In this document: one piece after another, positions 1,951 to 53,276 of the stretch
How positions within the stretch are numbered: position 1 is the first letter of the stretch
Layout: each line of letters starts with the position of its first letter
Assembly (NCBI GenBank): GCA_902760865.1
Contig: CACWID010000019.1
Coordinates: forward strand, 1 to 53,380
Direction of reading: 5' to 3'
Length of the DNA stretch: 53,380 bases
DNA from: an uncultured Bacteroidales bacterium
GTDB taxonomy: Bacteria > Bacteroidota > Bacteroidia > Bacteroidales > Muribaculaceae
Translations under genes and position numbers: made by a program
The notes under the pieces: generated by a model
The model's database searches: none
Seen by the model: the letters and a program-made list of their open reading frames with translations, nothing else
What the model was told of the DNA's origin: nothing

Positions 1951-2172
1951 TAAACTACGAATTCTACGATTTTATAAACTACGAATTACACGAATTATAC
2001 TAATTATTGGCATCCGCGCACATATTCTTATCGAATTTCACGAATTGCATCCGCTTACTGTCATAAACTACGAAATCCATGATTCTTATAAACTACGAAT
2101 TCCACGAATTATACTAATTATTGGCATCCGCGTACTTATTGTTTCGAATTTCACGAATGATCTCTTCATTTT
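1951..2172 (+). repeat. tandem GGCATCCGC-family repeats (83-bp unit type), locus A
   Basis: Starts of the word AAACTACGAA fall at 1951, 1975, 2065 and 2090; the last segment, 2090-2172, is a full 83-bp unit. The core GGCATCCGC occurs at 2008 and 2123, with a variant at 2046. The same 83-bp unit forms a five-copy array at 33991-34401. The array runs directly into the 3' end of the GxxExxY gene. Confidence 0.85.
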
Positions 2173-2207
2173 AAACTAGGATTTTGTGTAATTTGTAGTT
2201 TTGTTTC

Positions 2208-2597
2208 TCATTTGATTCGTTGTTTATCGATGTTGCAGAATCGTTCAGTTTTTAAACTTGTTTCTCCAAAGTTTGCGAGAATTCCCAACTCAAAGCCAGT
2301 AGCTTTCAAATAATTAATTACTTGAGCTTTCTCAACATCCGATAATCTGCTGAGAGCTTTCAACTCCACAATGATCTTATCGTAACACACAAAATCGGCG
2401 ATATAATCTTGCTGTAGAGGAATTCCTTTATAAAAAATCTTCAGACTGACTTCTCTCTTATATGGAATTCCATTTGCTATGAATTCACGTTCTAGCGCTT
2501 CCTGGTAAACTTTCTCCAGAAAACCGCATCCCAGTTCACGATGAACTGTCATCATGCATCCGATGATATCGTATGATTCTTTGGGATAAACTATCAT
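2208..2597 (-). CDS. GxxExxY-family protein, predicted PD-(D/E)XK nuclease fold
   Basis: A 129-residue protein of the family's usual length. The naming motif is G25-F-L-E28-K-V-Y31. A nuclease-like signature follows: D68 in 'IADFVCYD', E78-L-K80 in 'IIVELKAL', and Q92-V-I-N-Y96, the D / E-x-K / Q-x-x-x-Y order seen in PD-(D/E)XK enzymes. The biological role of the family is unknown to me. The gene is visibly AT-richer than the housekeeping genes and lies inside an inverted pair of intergenic repeats. A 21-codon C-terminal remnant of a paralogue is found at 34428-34493. All putative catalytic residues are present, so this copy appears intact. Confidence 0.88.
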   Translation of the reverse strand: MIVYPKESYDIIGCMMTVHRELGCGFLEKVYQEALEREFIANGIPYKREVSLKIFYKGIPLQQDYIADFVCYDKIIVELKALSRLSDVEKAQVINYLKATGFELGILANFGETSLKTERFCNIDKQRIK

Positions 2598-2612
2598 AGA
2601 TTCTAGAGTTTG

Positions 2613-2672
2613 CTTAATTCGTAATAATTAAGTGCGGATGCTAATTAGTTAAATTCGTGGAATTCGTAGTTT
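2613..2672 (-). repeat. inverted copy of the 83-bp repeat unit, 5' of the GxxExxY gene
   Basis: Read on the minus strand it starts AAACTACGAATTCCACGAAT and continues through a GCATCCGC core (2634-2641), as in the plus-oriented units at 1951-2172. It ends about 16 bases before the GxxExxY start codon, so it may also carry that gene's promoter. Confidence 0.8.
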
Positions 2673-2678
2673 AAGACG

Positions 2679-3443
2679 TCAGAGGGAGATGCCGAGGACG
2701 AGGGCGTGGGTGAAGTCGTGGACGTGGAGGTGGTTGACGGTCCAGTGCTCGAGGCGACTGCGGTAGCCCAGGCGCAGGGTCGTCTTGCCCAGGCGTAGGT
2801 CGGCGCCCAGGTAGTTGACCATGTCAAAACGGTTGCCCCACCAGCCCAGATGGGCGAGATTCTTGTGGTTGCCCAGGTAGATCTCGTAGTAGCTCTCGTC
2901 ATACTCGGGTGCGAAGAATGCGCCCGCCACGGGCAACTGCATCTGATAGCGCAGGGTGATGGGTTTGCGTCCCAGTCGGGTGTTGAACCAGGCCATGCCT
3001 GTCGCGCCCACGTTGGCATGGGCGCGCACGGTGACCGGATTGTTGCTGTTGACGGCGTTATAGACGATGCCGGCGCGCACCTGGGCCATCGGGCCGACCG
3101 AGAAGTTCAGCCGCGGATGGAGCACCCCCAACCAGGCGTGCTGCATGCTGAAGGAGATGTCGCCCATGAGTTTGTAGAGGTCGTTGTTCTGGGCCTTGTT
3201 CTCCACGTAGTTGTAGTCGGCCCCCACGCCGAGTTGCCACAGCCACTTGTGCTTTTTAGTCCAGCGGGTGGCCTCGAGGGAGAGGCCCAGGTCAAGTCCG
3301 TCGTAGGTGATGGGGGTGAGATAGCTGTCGTGGATCGAGGCATAGCCCGCGTCGAGCATGAGTGCCGACTGGTTGGGCAGCACCGCCGATTCGGGTATGT
3401 CGGCGGGTCGGGCCGCAACGGTCAGGCTGCAGCACAACAACAT
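2679..3443 (-). CDS. DUF3316-like outer-membrane protein
   Basis: From the ATG at 3443 this gives 254 residues. After a short hydrophobic start (MLLCCSLTVAA) the protein has barrel-like strands and ends 'HALVLGISL'. The passage 'SYLTPITYDGLDLGLSLEA' resembles the DUF3316 family of Bacteroidota envelope proteins. The open frame continues another 56 codons upstream, but that part runs through an intergenic repeat (3448-3487), so I prefer 3443. The resulting signal peptide is unusually short, so the start is uncertain and the repeat may have replaced the original 5' end. Function unknown. Confidence 0.65.
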   Translation of the reverse strand: MLLCCSLTVAARPADIPESAVLPNQSALMLDAGYASIHDSYLTPITYDGLDLGLSLEATRWTKKHKWLWQLGVGADYNYVENKAQNNDLYKLMGDISFSMQHAWLGVLHPRLNFSVGPMAQVRAGIVYNAVNSNNPVTVRAHANVGATGMAWFNTRLGRKPITLRYQMQLPVAGAFFAPEYDESYYEIYLGNHKNLAHLGWWGNRFDMVNYLGADLRLGKTTLRLGYRSRLEHWTVNHLHVHDFTHALVLGISL

Positions 3444-3447
3444 AATA

Positions 3448-3637
3448 AAAGGAAGACAATAAGTACAATAAATACTATGGCATCCGCGCCCGGTTTTAAA
3501 CGCTAATTTCGCGAATTCCACGAATTTAAATAATAAATACTTCGTGAAATCAGCGTAATTCGCGTAATTCGTATTAGCCCCGCAGGGAATGTGTCTGGAT
3601 AGCATTGTCATTATTGTATTTATTGTCTTCCCGTTAT
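3448..3637. repeat. MITE-like element with inverted ends in the DUF3316-parC spacer
   Basis: A roughly 30-bp sequence (AAAAGGAAGACAATAAGTAC...) at 3450-3478 recurs inverted at 3608-3637. Between them lie a GGCATCCGC core (3479-3487) and AATTCGCG/CGCGAATT words like those of the 83-bp unit. Further copies of the end sequence are at 43455-43494, 53192-53213 and 53234-53276. Confidence 0.65.
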
Positions 3638-23327: not shown

Positions 23328-23383
23328 TTAGTCGCTAGTCGCTAGTCATTAGTCACTAGTCATTAGTCGCTAGTCGCTAGTAT
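23328..23383. repeat. 7-bp-period array, word YTAGTCR
   Basis: Eight consecutive 7-mers of the form (C/T)TAGTC(A/G), starting two bases after the kdsD stop codon; the last unit is degenerate. It fills most of the spacer before the TPR-GDPD gene. Its TTAGTCA unit is the reverse complement of a unit in the array at 38493-38540. Confidence 0.85.
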
Positions 23384-32685: not shown

Positions 32686-33975
32686 TTACTCGCAGGGGGC
32701 GGGAGGATCGGCCGGCGATTGCTGGGCGTCTTTGGGGGTGACGGGGCGCCACAGGTAGAGTTTGTCGCTGGGGCGGATTTTCTCGGGGACGGCGATGGAG
32801 AAGTGCTCGCCCTTGACGGTCTTCTCGACGGGCTTGAGGTCCACGCGGATTTCCTCGATGGTCAAGGGGATGGCGCCCGTGGTGGGGCCGATGATCCATG
32901 CCTCGTCGCCGACGTGGAGTTCGCCGGCCTCCATGAGGAACTCGGCGACACCCAGCTTGCTGTAGTAGCGGATACCCTTGGCGGCATAGACTTTTACTCT
33001 GGTGGCACTGGAGCCGTACTTGGCCGACCACTCGCCCAGGCGCTGGCCCATGTAGTAGCCGTCCCAGAATCCGCGGTTGAAGACCTTGCCCAGGCGCTCG
33101 TTCCATTCGTTGATGCGCTCCTCGGTATAGGTGCCGCCACAGATGGCCCGCAGCGCTTCGTCATAGCAGCCGACGACGGTGCGGACGTATTCGGGACCTC
33201 GGGCACGGCCCTCAATCTTGAAGACGGTCACGCCGGCATCCACCATCTTGTTGAGGAAGTGGATGGTCTTGAGGTCCTTGGGCGACATGATGTATTTGTT
33301 CTCGATATTGAGTTCATCGCCGTTGACCAGGTCGGTGACGCGGTAGCCGCGACGGCAAATCTGGCGGCAGGCTCCGCGATTGGCGCTGGTGTTCTCCTGG
33401 TGCAGGCTCATGTAGCACTTGCCCGAGACCGCCATGCACAGGGCACCGTGGCAGAACATCTCCAGCCTGACGCGTTCACCATGGGGTCCACGAAGGTCAT
33501 TTTCTTCGATGAAATGGGTGATTTTGGTCACCTGTTCCAGGTTGAGTTCGCGGGCGAGGACCATGACGTCGGCCCACTGGCTGTAGTAGCGCACCGCCTC
33601 GCTGTTGCTCACGTTGACCTGGGTGGAGATGTGGACCTCCACGCCGATGGAGCGGGCAAACATGATGGTCGCCATGTCGCTGGCGATGATGGCGCTCACC
33701 TGGGCATCGCGTGCGGCGGTGACGATCTGGCGCATGTAGTCCATGTCCTCGTCATAGACGATGGTGTTGACCGTGAGGTAGCTCTTCATGCCGTGCTCGT
33801 GGCACCACTGGGCGATGGTGCGCAGGTCCTCGAGCGTGAAGTTGACGCTGGAGCGCGAGCGCATGTTCAGGCCCTCGATGCCGAAGTAGATGGCGTCGGC
33901 ACCGCCCTGGTGGGCGGCATACAGTGATTCCCAGGAGCCCACAGGGGCCATGATTTCAAAATCAGATCGGTTCAT
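32686..33975 (-). CDS. U32-family protein (TrhP/RlhA type)
   Basis: A 429-residue protein of the U32 'peptidase' family, whose studied members hydroxylate tRNA or rRNA bases using prephenate and an Fe-S cluster. 'EIMAPVGSWESLYAAHQGGADAIYFG' opens the barrel; the U32 signature is 'EMFCHGALCMAVSGKCYMS', followed by 'NRGACRQICRRGY', giving four conserved cysteines for a cluster. The N-terminus and length fit the TrhP branch (tRNA wobble uridine hydroxylation), but RlhA cannot be excluded. The gene starts beside the five-copy repeat array at 33991. Confidence 0.87.
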   Translation of the reverse strand: MNRSDFEIMAPVGSWESLYAAHQGGADAIYFGIEGLNMRSRSSVNFTLEDLRTIAQWCHEHGMKSYLTVNTIVYDEDMDYMRQIVTAARDAQVSAIIASDMATIMFARSIGVEVHISTQVNVSNSEAVRYYSQWADVMVLARELNLEQVTKITHFIEENDLRGPHGERVRLEMFCHGALCMAVSGKCYMSLHQENTSANRGACRQICRRGYRVTDLVNGDELNIENKYIMSPKDLKTIHFLNKMVDAGVTVFKIEGRARGPEYVRTVVGCYDEALRAICGGTYTEERINEWNERLGKVFNRGFWDGYYMGQRLGEWSAKYGSSATRVKVYAAKGIRYYSKLGVAEFLMEAGELHVGDEAWIIGPTTGAIPLTIEEIRVDLKPVEKTVKGEHFSIAVPEKIRPSDKLYLWRPVTPKDAQQSPADPPAPCE

Positions 33976-33990
33976 ATTCTAGTTCTTTTT

Positions 33991-34401
33991 AAACTACGAA
34001 TTACGCGAATTATACTAATTTTTGGCATCCGCCTACTTATTATTTCAAATTTCACGAATGGCCTCTACAGTTTAAACTACGAATTACATGAATTAAACTA
34101 ATTTTTGGCATCCGCTTACTTATTATTTCAAATTACACGAATGGCCTCTACAGTTTAAACTACGAATTACGCGAATTAAACTAATTTTTGGCATCCGCTT
34201 ACTTATTATTTCGAATTACACGAATGGCCTCTCCAGTTTAAACTACGAATTACGCGAATTAAACTAATTGGCATCCGCTTACTTATTATTTCGAATTACA
34301 CGAATGGCCTCTCCAGTTTAAACTACGAATTACGCGAATTAAACTAATTTGGCATCCGCCTGCTTATTCTTATCGAATTACACGAATGGCCTCTGCGTTT
34401 A
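33991..34401 (+). repeat. five tandem 83-bp GGCATCCGC-family units, locus B
   Basis: Units start at 33991, 34074, 34157, 34240 and 34320, with lengths 83, 83, 83, 80 and 82. Each begins AAACTACGAATTA, has GGCATCCGC in the middle and ends with CGAATGGCCTCTNCAGTTT or a close variant. The array runs into the GxxExxY remnant at 34402. It fills most of the 550-base spacer between the U32 gene and mutS. Confidence 0.92.
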
Positions 34402-34427
34402 AAACTAGTAATTTGTAGTTTTATTTC

Positions 34428-34493
34428 TCATTTACTTTGTTGTTTATTGATGTTGCAAAAGCGTTCGGTCTTTAAACTGGTCTCGCCAAAATT
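34428..34493 (-). pseudogene. C-terminal remnant of a GxxExxY gene
   Basis: On the minus strand 21 codons and a TGA encode NFGETSLKTERFCNI then NKQQSK, the counterpart of the last residues (109-129) of the intact protein at 2208-2597, with five changes. The noncoding tail (34411-34427) is also homologous to 2191-2207. The first 108 codons are missing; directly upstream the sequence continues as the inverted repeat end. About 13 differences over 82 bases separate the two copies by eye. Confidence 0.88.
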
Positions 34494-34520
34494 AGTCAAA
34501 TTCGTGTAATTCGTAGTTTA
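34491..34520 (-). repeat. inverted repeat end fused to the GxxExxY remnant
   Basis: Read on the minus strand it is AAACTACGAATTACACGAAT, then TTGACTAAT. This is the first part of the 83-bp unit, inverted relative to the array at 33991-34401, as at locus A. Confidence 0.8.
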
Positions 34521-34528
34521 TATTGTAA

Positions 34529-37349: not shown

Positions 37350-38504
37350 ATGTTTATCTATACATATACTGAAGCAGAGGGGTCCGAGTCACGCCGCGTG
37401 GCTGGGGAAATTGACCATGTGATGAAGCCTACCTTCGGCGACAGGCCTGGCGCCAACGGCCGTGAATATACGGGTCCGCGCCTGAGCGCAAGGATGCTGC
37501 TGGAGTATGAGGCTGCCCGCAATGAATTGCTCAACGGCATCATCACCCCCGAGATGGTCGAGCTGGTTGACATGGACAATTATGTCATCGGCATGAACGT
37601 GAAATCACCCTGTGGACTGACATTATGTCATGCGGTGCAAGGTTCCAATGTGCGAGCCCGCATCGACATCGAGGACCAGCACTTCCACCTGCAGTGGAGC
37701 GCGGCTCCGATGGAGATGATAGAACGTGGCCGCATCGTGGCATCGTCACAGGTGTTTCTGGAGCACGCAGCCGAGTGGAAAGAACAACTGGCTGCCGCCT
37801 TCAAGGCCGACAGCAAGGGCGTGAAAATGCGCAATATGACCCTGAACAACATTGATGCCTACCTGCAGCGCTACTTCGACGGCACGGGCATCACTTATTT
37901 TATGGACAAGCGCCATGCCGACGGTCATAAGGCCCGGTTGCTCATCCACCTGAACCGCTACAAGACGTTGGACCTGCCCATTCCCCACGACGACTTTATC
38001 AACCACCTGGACCTGGTGAAACCCTACATGGTGGAGTTTGCCTATATGGCCCGCGACGGACGTTTCACCGTTCGCGGCGAGGTGCGCGATGACTGGCAGC
38101 AGGCCCTGCCGCCCGAAGCCACTGAGGACGACGAGAAGCCGCAGCCCCAAGGTATCAAGGGATGGCTGCACCGTCTGCTCGACGGCAAGGGAGACCGGCC
38201 CGTCGAGGCACCTAAGAGCGAACTGCAGCAGCAGATAGACACCTACTTTGAGGGCAAGCGCTGGCAATATCACCTCGTCGAGGACGAGGAGAGCGGCCGT
38301 CGCGAGCTGCACATCAGGCTGAGCCGTGGCAAGTCCATGATCATCGACCTGAGCCAGGGCGGTGACATCGAGTCCCGCATCAAGCACGACATGGGCTACA
38401 TCCCGCGGCTGGCCGAGCTGGCCAAGCTGTTCCCCTACCGCCTGACCGGTCCCCGCAAGAAGGTGGAATGGATCACCGCACCCCTCAGCGAAACTAAAGA
38501 CTAA
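37350..38504 (+). CDS. unknown protein preceding the MoxR-VWA pair
   Basis: A 384-residue soluble protein that I do not recognise; no signal peptide or membrane segment. Two stretches look like divergent copies of one domain: residues 167-243 (NIDAYLQRYFDGTG ... ARLLIHLNRYKTLDLPI ... LVKPYMVEFAYM) and 295-370 (QIDTYFEGKRWQYH ... ELHIRLSRGKSMIIDLS ... YIPRLAELAKLF), joined by a charged linker (DDEKPQPQ). It is 37 bases upstream of the MoxR ATPase gene and probably its operon partner. A GTG three bases upstream of the ATG is a less likely start. Confidence 0.7.
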   Translation: MFIYTYTEAEGSESRRVAGEIDHVMKPTFGDRPGANGREYTGPRLSARMLLEYEAARNELLNGIITPEMVELVDMDNYVIGMNVKSPCGLTLCHAVQGSNVRARIDIEDQHFHLQWSAAPMEMIERGRIVASSQVFLEHAAEWKEQLAAAFKADSKGVKMRNMTLNNIDAYLQRYFDGTGITYFMDKRHADGHKARLLIHLNRYKTLDLPIPHDDFINHLDLVKPYMVEFAYMARDGRFTVRGEVRDDWQQALPPEATEDDEKPQPQGIKGWLHRLLDGKGDRPVEAPKSELQQQIDTYFEGKRWQYHLVEDEESGRRELHIRLSRGKSMIIDLSQGGDIESRIKHDMGYIPRLAELAKLFPYRLTGPRKKVEWITAPLSETKD

Positions 38505-38540
38505 TGACTAATGACTAAAACTAACAACTAAATACTACAA
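38493..38540. repeat. 7-bp-period array, word ACTAANN
   Basis: ACTAAAG, ACTAATG, ACTAATG, ACTAAAA, then ACTAACA, ACTAAAT and ACTACAA with one base of overlap. It begins inside the last codons of the upstream gene and stops two bases before the MoxR start codon. Confidence 0.8.
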
Positions 38541-40856: not shown

Positions 40857-40935
40857 GTGCGCGTAGCGCAGGAGGAATTATTCTTCGGTAGCCTCAACGC
40901 CCCCCGGCCCCCTCTAAGATTAGAGGGGGAGTTGA
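40857..40935. repeat. two-hairpin intergenic element, copy 2
   Basis: Hairpin one is TGCGC-GTA-GCGCA (40858-40870); hairpin two is CCCCCTCTA-AGAT-TAGAGGGGG (40908-40929), joined by TCAACGCCCCCCGG as in copy 1 at 731-830. Both stems differ from copy 1 only by paired, compensatory changes. Confidence 0.78.
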
Positions 40936-40991: not shown

Positions 40992-41037
40992 ATTACGCTG
41001 GTCAAACGAACAATTACATTCGTTTAACCAGCGTAAT
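40992..41037. terminator. long hairpin between convergent genes
   Basis: A 19-base arm (40992-41010) pairs with 41019-41037 at 18 of 19 positions around an 8-base loop. It lies between the VWA gene (+) and the aminotransferase gene (-). It has no T run, and its words (ATTACGCTGGT) resemble intergenic repeats elsewhere, so it may be a repeat rather than a terminator. Confidence 0.55.
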
Positions 41038-41065
41038 CTGCGTTATGTCGACTAGGCTGTCGTGC

Positions 41066-43454: not shown

Positions 43455-43585
43455 AAAAAGAAAACAATAAGCACAATAATGACAAGGCCATCCGGACCAT
43501 AAAATAAAAGACAACTCAAACAACGGGCATCCGCACTCTTTTATAAACTACGAATTACACGAATTATACTAATTGGCATCTGTGC
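43455..43585 (+). repeat. GGCATCCGC-family repeats, locus C
   Basis: AAAGAAAACAATAAGCACAA followed by GGCCATCCGG (43486), then GGCATCCGC (43526-43534), AAACTACGAATTACACGAAT and GGCATCTGTG (43574). Part of the 480-base divergent spacer between the LpxL-like and BASS genes. Confidence 0.75.
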
Positions 43586-43651
43586 TATGGGTCTCACGCT
43601 AAGACGCTATGACGCTAAGGTTTAATATATTATGCCGTTATGCCGGCCCTT

Positions 43652-44824: not shown

Positions 44825-44854
44825 AAAACAACTGATTAGTCTGAATTTTCTGAG

Positions 44855-45000
44855 GGCATCCGCATACTTTTATAAACTACGAATTACGCGAATTAGACTG
44901 ATTGGCATCCGCGTCCTTTAAATGAACTACGAATTGCGCGAATTAGACGAATTGGCATCCGCGTACTTGATTTTTTCGAATTTCACGAATTGGCATCCGC
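44855..45000 (+). repeat. GGCATCCGC-family repeats, locus D
   Basis: Four GGCATCCGC cores at 44855, 44904, 44954 and 44992, separated by AAACTACGAATTACGCGAAT-like or TTCGAATTTCACGAAT words. The units are shorter (38-50 bp) than the 83-bp type. They fill the spacer between the transporter and the PaaI-like thioesterase. Confidence 0.85.
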
Positions 45001-47301: not shown

Positions 47302-48096
47302 CTACACTGAAACCTCGCCCTTGATGGCGGGCCAGGGGTCGTAGCCCTCGAGGGTGAAGTCCTCGTACTTGTAGTCGTCGATGCTCTTGACATCGGGATT
47401 CAGGACCATGCGGGGCAGGGGACGCGGTTCGCGCGAGAGCTGCTCCCGGATCTGGTCGAAGTGGTTGCGGTAGATGTGGGCATCGCCGAAGGTGTGGATG
47501 AACTCACCCGGCTCGAGGTCCGTCACGTGGGCCACCATCATCAACAGCAGCGCATAGGAGGCGATGTTGAACGGCACGCCCAGGAAGAGGTCGGCGCTGC
47601 GCTGGTAGAGCTGGAGGCTCAGTTTGCCGTCGGCCACATAGAACTGGAACAGCGAGTGGCACGGCGGCAGCTTCATGGTAGGCACCTCGGCTACGTTCCA
47701 CGCGCTGACCATGATGCGTCGGCTGTCGGGGGTGTTCCTGATTTGGTCGATGACCTGAGCAATCTGGTCGATGGTGCCGCCGTTGCCGTCGGGCCAGGCA
47801 CGCCACTGGCTGCCATAGACGGGCCCTAGGTCGCCGTTCTCGTCGGCCCACTCGTTCCAGATGCGCACGCCGTGCTCCTGCAGCCAGCGCACGTTGGTGT
47901 CGCCGCGCAGGAACCACAGCAGTTCATAGATGATGGACTTGAGGTGCACCTTCTTGGTCGTGAGCAGCGGGAATCCGTCGGCCAGGTTGCAGCGCAACTG
48001 GTAGCCGAACACACTGCGCGTTCCGGTTCCCGTGCGGTCTTCCTTGTCCACGCCGTGCTCCATCACATGTCGCACCAGGTCAAGATATTGTTTCAT
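47302..48096 (-). CDS. thyA: thymidylate synthase
   Basis: A 264-residue ThyA. '[20 protein letters not shown]' opens it; the catalytic '[14 protein letters not shown]' places Cys146, the same number as in E. coli. '[20 protein letters not shown]' (phosphate and folate sites) and the C-terminal '[15 protein letters not shown]' are complete. It converts dUMP to dTMP, consuming methylene-tetrahydrofolate that folA recycles. Spacers on both sides are tandem arrays. Confidence 0.96.
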
Positions 48097-48130
48097 TTTA
48101 GTTTCTAGTTTTTAGTCCCTAGTTTCTAGT
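48096..48130. repeat. 7-bp-period array, word YYYTAGT
   Basis: TTTTAGT, TTCTAGT, TTTTAGT, CCCTAGT, TTCTAGT, beginning with the last base of the thyA start codon (minus strand) and ending three bases before the stop codon of the DUF2752 gene. Confidence 0.8.
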
Positions 48131-53191: not shown

Positions 53192-53276
53192 GATAAAAGG
53201 AAGACAATAGCTCTTGGAATTAAAACAATTCAAGATAAAAGGAAAACAATAAATACAATGAATACAAGGCATCCGC
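53192..53276 (+). repeat. direct repeat and GGCATCCGC core after the GH89 gene
   Basis: GATAAAAGGAAGACAATA (53192-53209) recurs as GATAAAAGGAAAACAATA (53234-53251), the latter leading through AATACAATGAATACAA to GGCATCCGC (53268-53276). The remaining bases to 53380 contain TTGACA and a T-rich stretch that may be the start of a promoter for a gene beyond the window. Confidence 0.7.

Follow-up and report, generated by a model that had tools for sequence, protein, structure and literature searches.

The window, i.e., the whole stretch of 53,380 nucleotides that was analysed (contig C19 of a draft genome of 3.35 Mb), was found to contain a gene for a predicted GxxExxY nuclease between inverted arrays of short words, followed at a distance by a second copy of this unit that has lost most of its gene. 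The features of the two copies were as follows.

1956-2160, plus strand: arrays of the 3'-side arm of the gene, with two degenerate copies 114 nt apart (1961-2029 and 2075-2143)
2208-2597, minus strand: GxxExxY / PDDEXK_3 gene for a predicted nuclease of 129 aa (E28, D68, E78, K80, Q92, Y96)
2615-2674, minus strand: inverted 5'-side arm of the gene
2634-2674, minus strand: main 5' arm within the preceding feature, with the words TACGAATT/CACGAATT/AACTAATT, then GCATCCGC
33971-34396, plus strand: five tandem 83-nt units on the 3' side of the deleted element, spaced 83/83/83/80
34408-34493, minus strand: remnant of the same GxxExxY gene (its last 21 codons with the stop and the 3' flank), with 85% DNA identity to 2188-2273
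34488-34527, minus strand: inverted arm on the 5' side of the deleted element, directly adjoining the remnant

In profile searches, the window protein matched TIGR04256 (GxxExxY) with an E-value of 8.8e-43 and 145.4 bits (cut-off 35) and PF13366 (PDDEXK_3) with an E-value of 2.6e-40 and 137.8 bits (cut-off 22), the latter being its sole Pfam match at E<=0.001. The D68, E78, K80, Q92 and Y96 residues were found at the positions given in the preliminary description; among 28 homologues, E78 was invariant and the other four were nearly so. E28, D68, E78 and K80 were intact in 160 of 164 GxxExxY proteins, which bears out the conservation of D68/E78/K80 expected in that description and, together with the alpha-beta core fold, corresponds to the PD-(D/E)XK pattern. 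The predicted structure (pLDDT 94.2) was matched to 4ic1 by Foldseek and VIA. By sequence, no solved structure lay nearby, the best E-value being 0.11 for an unrelated enzyme and that of 4ic1 being 0.61. From its sequence and its modelled fold, the GxxExxY protein is predicted to be a PD-(D/E)XK nuclease, which differs from Cas4 SSO0001 (4ic1), lambda exonuclease, the restriction-endonuclease-like 3ijm and Hjc in having a minimal core of ~125 aa. The median dN/dS was 0.080 in 159 pairs with gene identity >80%, a value that indicates strong purifying selection on the GxxExxY genes.

The inverted flanks of the window gene had a score of 38.5, the mean of the shuffles being 9.8 (z 18.5). Tandem copies of an 83-bp repeat had been described on the 3' side of the gene; copies were present there, but they were degenerate and were not arranged in tandem, and the true 83-nt tandem array (33971-34396) was located 32 kb away. 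The copy said to lie 16 bases before the start was indeed inverted, but the main arm begins 36 nt upstream, with a weaker inner extension beginning 17 nt before the start codon. The dispersal of the 83-bp family was confirmed by 64 matches at 39 places of the genome, with several window spacers among them. The stretch 33971-34527 is a second copy of the whole window unit from which most of the gene has been deleted, and its remnant translates as NFGETSLKTERFCNINKQQSK up to the stop. Both the remnant and the inverted arm beside it had been missed before.

For the flank test, the 250 nt upstream of a gene were compared with the reverse complement of the 250 nt downstream, against dinucleotide shuffles. 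The source genome contained eight GxxExxY genes, all of which had inverted flanks (z 8.4 to 18.5), with a different sequence at each. Across many phyla, archaea included, inverted flanks with z>5 were found in 117 of 167 GxxExxY loci (L087, L112 and L131, with short flanks, were also left out of this test). The layout likened to REP repeats and their RAYT gene, with a nuclease replacing the transposase, is therefore supported well beyond the window locus. The relatives, mostly congeneric, had z>5 in 74 of 90 loci (30/35 and 44/55); their search gave 104 matches, of which 91 went to the flank test (L157 was too short) and the remaining 13 were fragments, contig-edge pieces, broken copies or matches below the cut-off. 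From the pattern scan, the best 80 of 587 named loci were taken, 77 being testable, and z>5 was found in 43 of the 77 (44 under another shuffle set); these loci represented Bacteroidota, Proteobacteria, Planctomycetota, Verrucomicrobia, Acidobacteria, Chloroflexota, Cyanobacteria, archaea and others. Among the archaeal loci, L089 (z 8.4) and L104 (z 8.2) were inverted, and L081 (z 0.7) had no inversion. In the phylum-wide sample, where the best match per genome was taken, 21 of 30 loci were inverted; 18 of the 20 stretches of one set were tested there, 15 of them having z>5. GxxExxY matches were found in 152 of the 296 genomes sampled in the phylum, in 149 of them over the cut-off.

As a control, 257 neighbouring ORFs of the same stretches were scored, and only 5 reached z>5; of these positives, L178 is a four-helix-bundle gene and L132 looks like one. 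Chance, or simple AT-rich repeats near genes, could have been suspected since the arms are AT-rich and degenerate, whereas in 124 of the 167 loci the observed score was reached by none of 100 dinucleotide shuffles. This explanation was refuted by the shuffle and neighbour controls, and we give it practically no credence. The expectation that GxxExxY genes in related genomes are flanked by these repeats stood in part: inversion was enriched in comparison with the neighbours, but the 83-bp family was not common to all. Fifty of the 167 loci were below z 5. Of 27 loci with z<2, 25 retained intact catalytic residues and only L064 and L205 had lost them, so that a general rule by which catalysis is lost along with the arms was not supported.

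With the window protein as a tblastn query, matches were found in 0 of 50,697 phage records and in 8 of 72,556 plasmid records. The search of IMG/VR, which started from short peptide patterns that divergent copies could escape, gave no contig for alignment A2 and one contig for alignment A4 (L311, inverted flanks, z 12.9). Phage carriage of GxxExxY elements was rejected on the scans of the phage records and IMG/VR. Five of the eight plasmid records provided loci, of which L268 (z 8.0) and L269 (z 6.0) were inverted, and those of Treponema (L270, 0.4), Sphingomonas (L271, 0.4, between fabD and fabG) and Fusobacteria (L272, 1.5) were not. GxxExxY and four-helix-bundle genes were also seen ~1-3 kb apart in G000:C42, G001:C66, G008:C96 and G024:C4.

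The arms were found to be arrays of a short word recurring every 9-10 nt. In 100 arms the autocorrelation peaked at lags 9-10, with an identity of 0.39 at lag 9 and 0.35 at lag 10 against 0.29 in shuffled arms. The C(A/G)C(A/G)(A/G)AG-type words (CACAGAG, CGCAAAG, CACGGAG) went with GLLESVYE-type proteins across phyla, the GAATTA/GGATTA words with the lineage of the window protein, and the GACAAC or GACAATAA words with GLNESCYQEGL proteins; further pairings of word and lineage were also seen. The repeat had been taken for one 83-bp family, a view that had to be given up as the protein lineages have iterated words of their own; a universal 83-bp family at all GxxExxY genes was rejected, the words being locus-specific. 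In 111 loci (z>5, arms up to 130 nt), protein identity was correlated with word similarity (Mantel rho 0.278), compared with 0.019 when the words were reversed (permutation sd 0.029, maximum 0.080 of 500). Judged by these comparisons, the word follows the protein lineage in a fixed orientation relative to the gene. Word sharing among relatives could partly reflect shared descent. The orientation of the arrays had no link with GC skew (16/31 regions), by which a replication-strand bias as a sign of single-strand transposition was rejected, and a weak link with the coding strand (rho 0.46, p 0.005).

The gyrA-like, DUF3316 and S41 peptidase genes were found together in 27 of 30 genus-level loci. 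The DUF3316-S41 spacer contained a GxxExxY element in the window and in G006, whereas in G024 the element was present in the neighbouring spacer instead, with a 90% identical protein. The DUF3316-S41 spacer of G020 contained a 16-residue GxxExxY remnant; by eye, both arms without a gene were found there in G018, gene-less inverted AACAAC elements in several other relatives, and short, array-free spacers in more distant congeners. An element whose inverted ends measure 30 nt was present between radA and an FAD-protein gene in a record of B. finegoldii. Both genes were present in 17 of the 30 loci compared (the stretches of the other 13 were without the FAD gene), and in 16 of the 17 relatives the spacer was 9-144 nt long and without such an element. 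The comparison of relatives for empty sites, as proposed in the preliminary description, thus did find element-free spacers, which were too diverged for the exact junction or a target-site duplication to be read. In G298, the same spacer contained a different GxxExxY gene, with a frameshift, flanked by inverted arms. The presence of two different GxxExxY elements in this one short spacer downstream of radA, in two relatives (L268 and L283), hints at a preferred target.

Gene-less derivatives were also found. For the arm of L007 there were 46 genomic matches, among them six sets of close inverted pairs; five of the six pairs were folded, and all five formed DNA hairpins (z -3.3 to -10.3). Some of these hairpins shared their loop sequence, and they therefore look like copies of one miniature element. 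The gene-less element and the solo arrays of the window were the following.

3445-3637, no strand assigned: gene-less nested element, with an outer inverted ACAATAA pair (3445-3485 / 3597-3637) and, by eye, an inner inverted pair of CGAATT words
23329-23381, plus strand: array of a 7-nt word (TAGTCGC) of the four-helix-bundle kind
41018-41044, minus strand: solo array of the L003 family (CGCTGATTA), a weak match
43455-43619, plus strand: solo arrays of three families, L007 (ACAATAA), L001 (ACGAATTA) and L151 (CGCTAAG)
44827-45000, plus strand: solo arrays of two families, L002 (CTGAATAA) and L001, with GGCATCCGC joining them
53237-53276, plus strand: solo array of the L007 family, then GGCATCCGC

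A copy similar to the nested element was seen by eye in another spacer of G048 (L243). On a rough ORF map, 30 of the 32 array hits of the window were intergenic; the other two lay within the start of ORF 2679-3611 (DUF3316 protein), which seems over-extended through the nested arrays at 3445-3611, and this may explain some short extra protein hits. Lone arrays of the four-helix type were present at 23329-23381 and, as weak matches, at 38493-38520 and 48096-48130. The GGCATCCGC sequence occurred 15 times in the window, always on the plus strand (e.g., at 2009, 2123, 34024, 44904 and 53268), against a chance mean of 1.04; it joins arrays of differing families, and 134 of its 161 copies in 41 stretches were in the local majority orientation. 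A 47-nt repeat at 787-833 and 40888-40934 (89% identical, with an internal inverted repeat) is not of the word-array kind. Outside the source genome, the 83-bp family had 13-28 matches in each of G007, G009, G017 and G021, where the closest intact GxxExxY proteins found were at most 48% identical to the window protein. Among 41 genomes, the 83-bp and L007-type arrays were also present where no close cognate gene was found, and a strict dependence of array on gene received no support; draft genomes and old relics may account for such arrays.

At one site in the genus g212, at least 50 of 249 genomes (source genome included) aligned over all or nearly all of the flank-element-flank query, and the gene was present in all 35 of the matches retrieved and read. 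The outer word CCAC[A/G][G/A]ATT had four main versions in 35 species with simple occupied spacers, a set that leaves out the element-free L387 and L388, L389-L396 (spacers >600 nt) and L362 (a duplicate of L350). The same nine-letter outer word was found at both ends in 28 of the 35 species, and the two arms of a species agreed at 22.1 of 28 positions, compared with 18.5 when the pairing was shuffled (sd 0.46, maximum 20.0 of 5000). In the 60 species pairs whose flanks were most alike (identity 0.906-0.944), the genes were 85-99.7% identical where the word version was the same and only 69-74% identical where it was different. Over 41 rows, the word version required 12 changes on the flank tree and 5 on the gene tree, which indicates that gene and arms move as a unit. 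The shuffled mean on the flank tree was 18.1, so that the word version is clustered there and much of its inheritance would be vertical. The number of changes was 12 on the tree of the nearest 120 nt of each side, 14 on that of the far part, 15 on the left-gene tree and 10 on the right-gene tree, the forks of the flank trees being weakly supported; these counts leave room for very short recombination tracts at the site.

In six aligned pairs, the agreement mostly resumed at GCCAC...GTGGC, where or close to which the swap ended. It is well supported by these alignments that the gene and both arms travel together, with the boundaries of the unit at or close to the arms. Just beyond the 3' end, some 70 nt of non-coding DNA were almost identical in L363 and L399, and the length of the outer 3' spacer differed within L375/L385 and L367/L404. 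In L391, a new-type element adjoined what appears by eye to be a 3' arm left over from an element of the old type. A membrane-protein-like gene was seen by eye in L390 (G789) and L389 (G877), in the spacer that is used by GxxExxY elements elsewhere; that of L390 was flanked by inverted TTTAAAG arrays, and L389 also contained an apparent decayed GxxExxY element.

Such exchange may be read as homing or allele replacement, in which the nuclease cuts a different resident element or an empty spacer and repair, with incoming homologous DNA as the template, swaps in its own copy, without new sites being reached. This reading fits the observation that entire elements were exchanged repeatedly at one site while the outer flanks were preserved, and also the leftover arm of L391. 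However, window-type elements occupy different spacers in G024 and the window, the unit is present twice in the window, and copies without the gene are scattered; movement to new sites is therefore needed, and homing by itself seems somewhat unlikely.

The locus could also be that of a domesticated nuclease, with arms that serve as terminators, as stems for RNA processing or as autoregulatory sites, and with exchange being the ordinary recombination of a useful locus. This would agree with the strong purifying selection, with the presence of the element-bearing query at one site in so many genomes of one genus, and with the absence of the window protein from the phage records and its rarity in the plasmid records. 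Against it, the nearest 120 nt of flank were not dragged along by the exchange, and deleted, nested and solo derivatives exist. In the window, no Rfam family was matched, which also speaks against it and by which the arrays were rejected as a known RNA family. We consider domestication distinctly unlikely.

The four-helix-bundle genes (TIGR02436, S23-like) of the same genomes (L208-L237) were found to have inverted word arrays in 23 of 30 cases (z>5). Their arms had a period of 7 nt, with an identity of 0.59 against 0.31 at lags 7 and 14 in 21 arms, taken from 21 of the 23 loci. As these genes do not encode nucleases and have the same architecture, the nuclease may not be the mover; the parallel, which was unexpected, gives the finding a broader scope and makes it less certain that the nuclease must be the mover. 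The arms might be mobilised by another shared enzyme or a host process, the GxxExxY protein, like the four-helix protein, being cargo or a word-binding accessory. Besides the two unrelated protein families, this passenger reading would accommodate the third gene, the membrane-protein-like ORF between the inverted arrays of L390 (by eye), and the solo arrays without a close cognate gene. It is opposed by the co-divergence of the words with the GxxExxY lineage in a fixed orientation, by the word period, which is set apart by the kind of protein (9-10 nt versus 7 nt), and by the conserved catalytic residues. On balance, we regard it as unlikely.

The preferred reading is that the GxxExxY gene and its flanking arrays are probably one small genetic element (~0.46-0.6 kb where measured) that is moved by its own nuclease. 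The architecture and its generality, the co-divergence, the presence and absence at syntenic spacers, the exchange as a unit, the derivatives and the purifying selection, as established from sequence comparison, are the ground for it. The co-divergence suggests that the nuclease recognises its word; it would bind several copies in one arm and the mirrored copies at the other end. The nuclease would then cut at or near the ends of the element, and by repair or integration the unit would enter an intergenic spacer or replace a resident element, the DNA step being either transposition or a homing-like cut and repair. Gene-less arm pairs (hairpins of ~90 nt) might be spread in trans, in the way proposed for REPINs and the RAYT transposases. 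By such cutting and DNA transaction, the nuclease would spread or maintain the repeats. More tentatively, and with a confidence slightly short of even, the GxxExxY elements (words every 9-10 nt) and the four-helix-bundle elements (words every 7 nt) may be the first two families of a mobile-element class not recognised so far. In this class, an iterated short word would be read by a very small protein, word and protein would drift together, and residents would give way to elements with another word specificity. A large part of the short repeats between the genes of Bacteroidota, as well as the CACAGAG, CGCAAAG or heptamer arrays in other phyla and archaea, would then be debris of the class.

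GxxExxY is a very common family, and its words form much of the intergenic repeat DNA of the window. If the preferred reading is true, short repeats would have a new way of spreading in bacteria and archaea, carried by a unit whose single gene encodes a nuclease and which co-diverges with the word on its flanks; such units may explain many of the scattered repeats of bacterial genomes. The nucleases with their matched, differing words are a natural series, in which specificity is directly testable.

Insertion sequences and MITEs are bounded by terminal inverted repeats, with a single gene, insertion between genes and derivatives that are deleted and non-autonomous. The GxxExxY element resembles them in its terminal inverted repeats, single gene, deleted derivatives and intergenic placement; it differs from them in matching only PDDEXK_3 / GxxExxY, with no recognised transposase or recombinase, and in having arms that vary at nearly every locus. 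Among the papers listed from the open PMC literature, no link of GxxExxY, TIGR04256 or PF13366 to repeats, and no account of such an element, was found in the titles and the opening parts of abstracts. In the portions of the papers at hand, GxxExxY is present once beside a CRISPR-like reverse transcriptase (PMC8934634) and once in a gene table of algal viruses (PMC12085832), and PF13366 occurs in PMC9756366.

The 23S rRNA intervening sequence with S23 is, in the available part of its source, a one-gene element of ~0.43 kb with inverted-repeat borders, which is excised from the RNA by RNase III (PMC4990558). It is similar in its single gene and inverted borders, and S23-type proteins are encoded in the parallel four-helix elements; it differs in location, since the window and syntenic GxxExxY elements examined sit in spacers of protein genes. 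An rRNA intervening sequence was rejected for the window element, which lies between protein genes, encodes GxxExxY and has no Rfam match. Intergenic heptamer arrays, e.g., TAACTGA, have been reported with a patchy distribution in Beggiatoaceae, Cyanobacteria and Bacteroidetes, with an abstract that finds no transfer mechanism evident and a text from which the terms 'four helix', 'S23' and 'nuclease' were absent (PMC4679880). With their period of 7, as given there, these arrays are nearer to the four-helix kind than to GxxExxY, and elements of the GxxExxY type offer a concrete hypothesis for such short-word arrays.

The REP/RAYT system, as far as the accessible parts of its descriptions go (PMC2817692, PMC3116915), has a gene between two inverted extragenic repeats; the REPs are dispersed as inverted doublets that form hairpins and also as mosaics, and the repeat diversifies along with the protein. 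The RAYT protein is a tyrosine transposase of the IS200/IS605-like kind, whereas the REPs themselves are GC-rich palindromes headed by GT(A/G)G (PMC2817692, PMC3116915). The GxxExxY gene likewise lies between inverted extragenic repeats that are also dispersed and that co-diverge with the protein, and its gene-less inverted arm pairs form hairpins in the manner of REPINs. In contrast, its protein is a predicted PD-(D/E)XK nuclease and not a tyrosine transposase of the IS200/IS605 type, and its arm is an array of an iterated word complementary to the opposite arm and not a GTAG-headed palindrome. As a probable small, repeat-bounded mobile element, the GxxExxY element has a fair chance of deserving a class of its own beside these systems.
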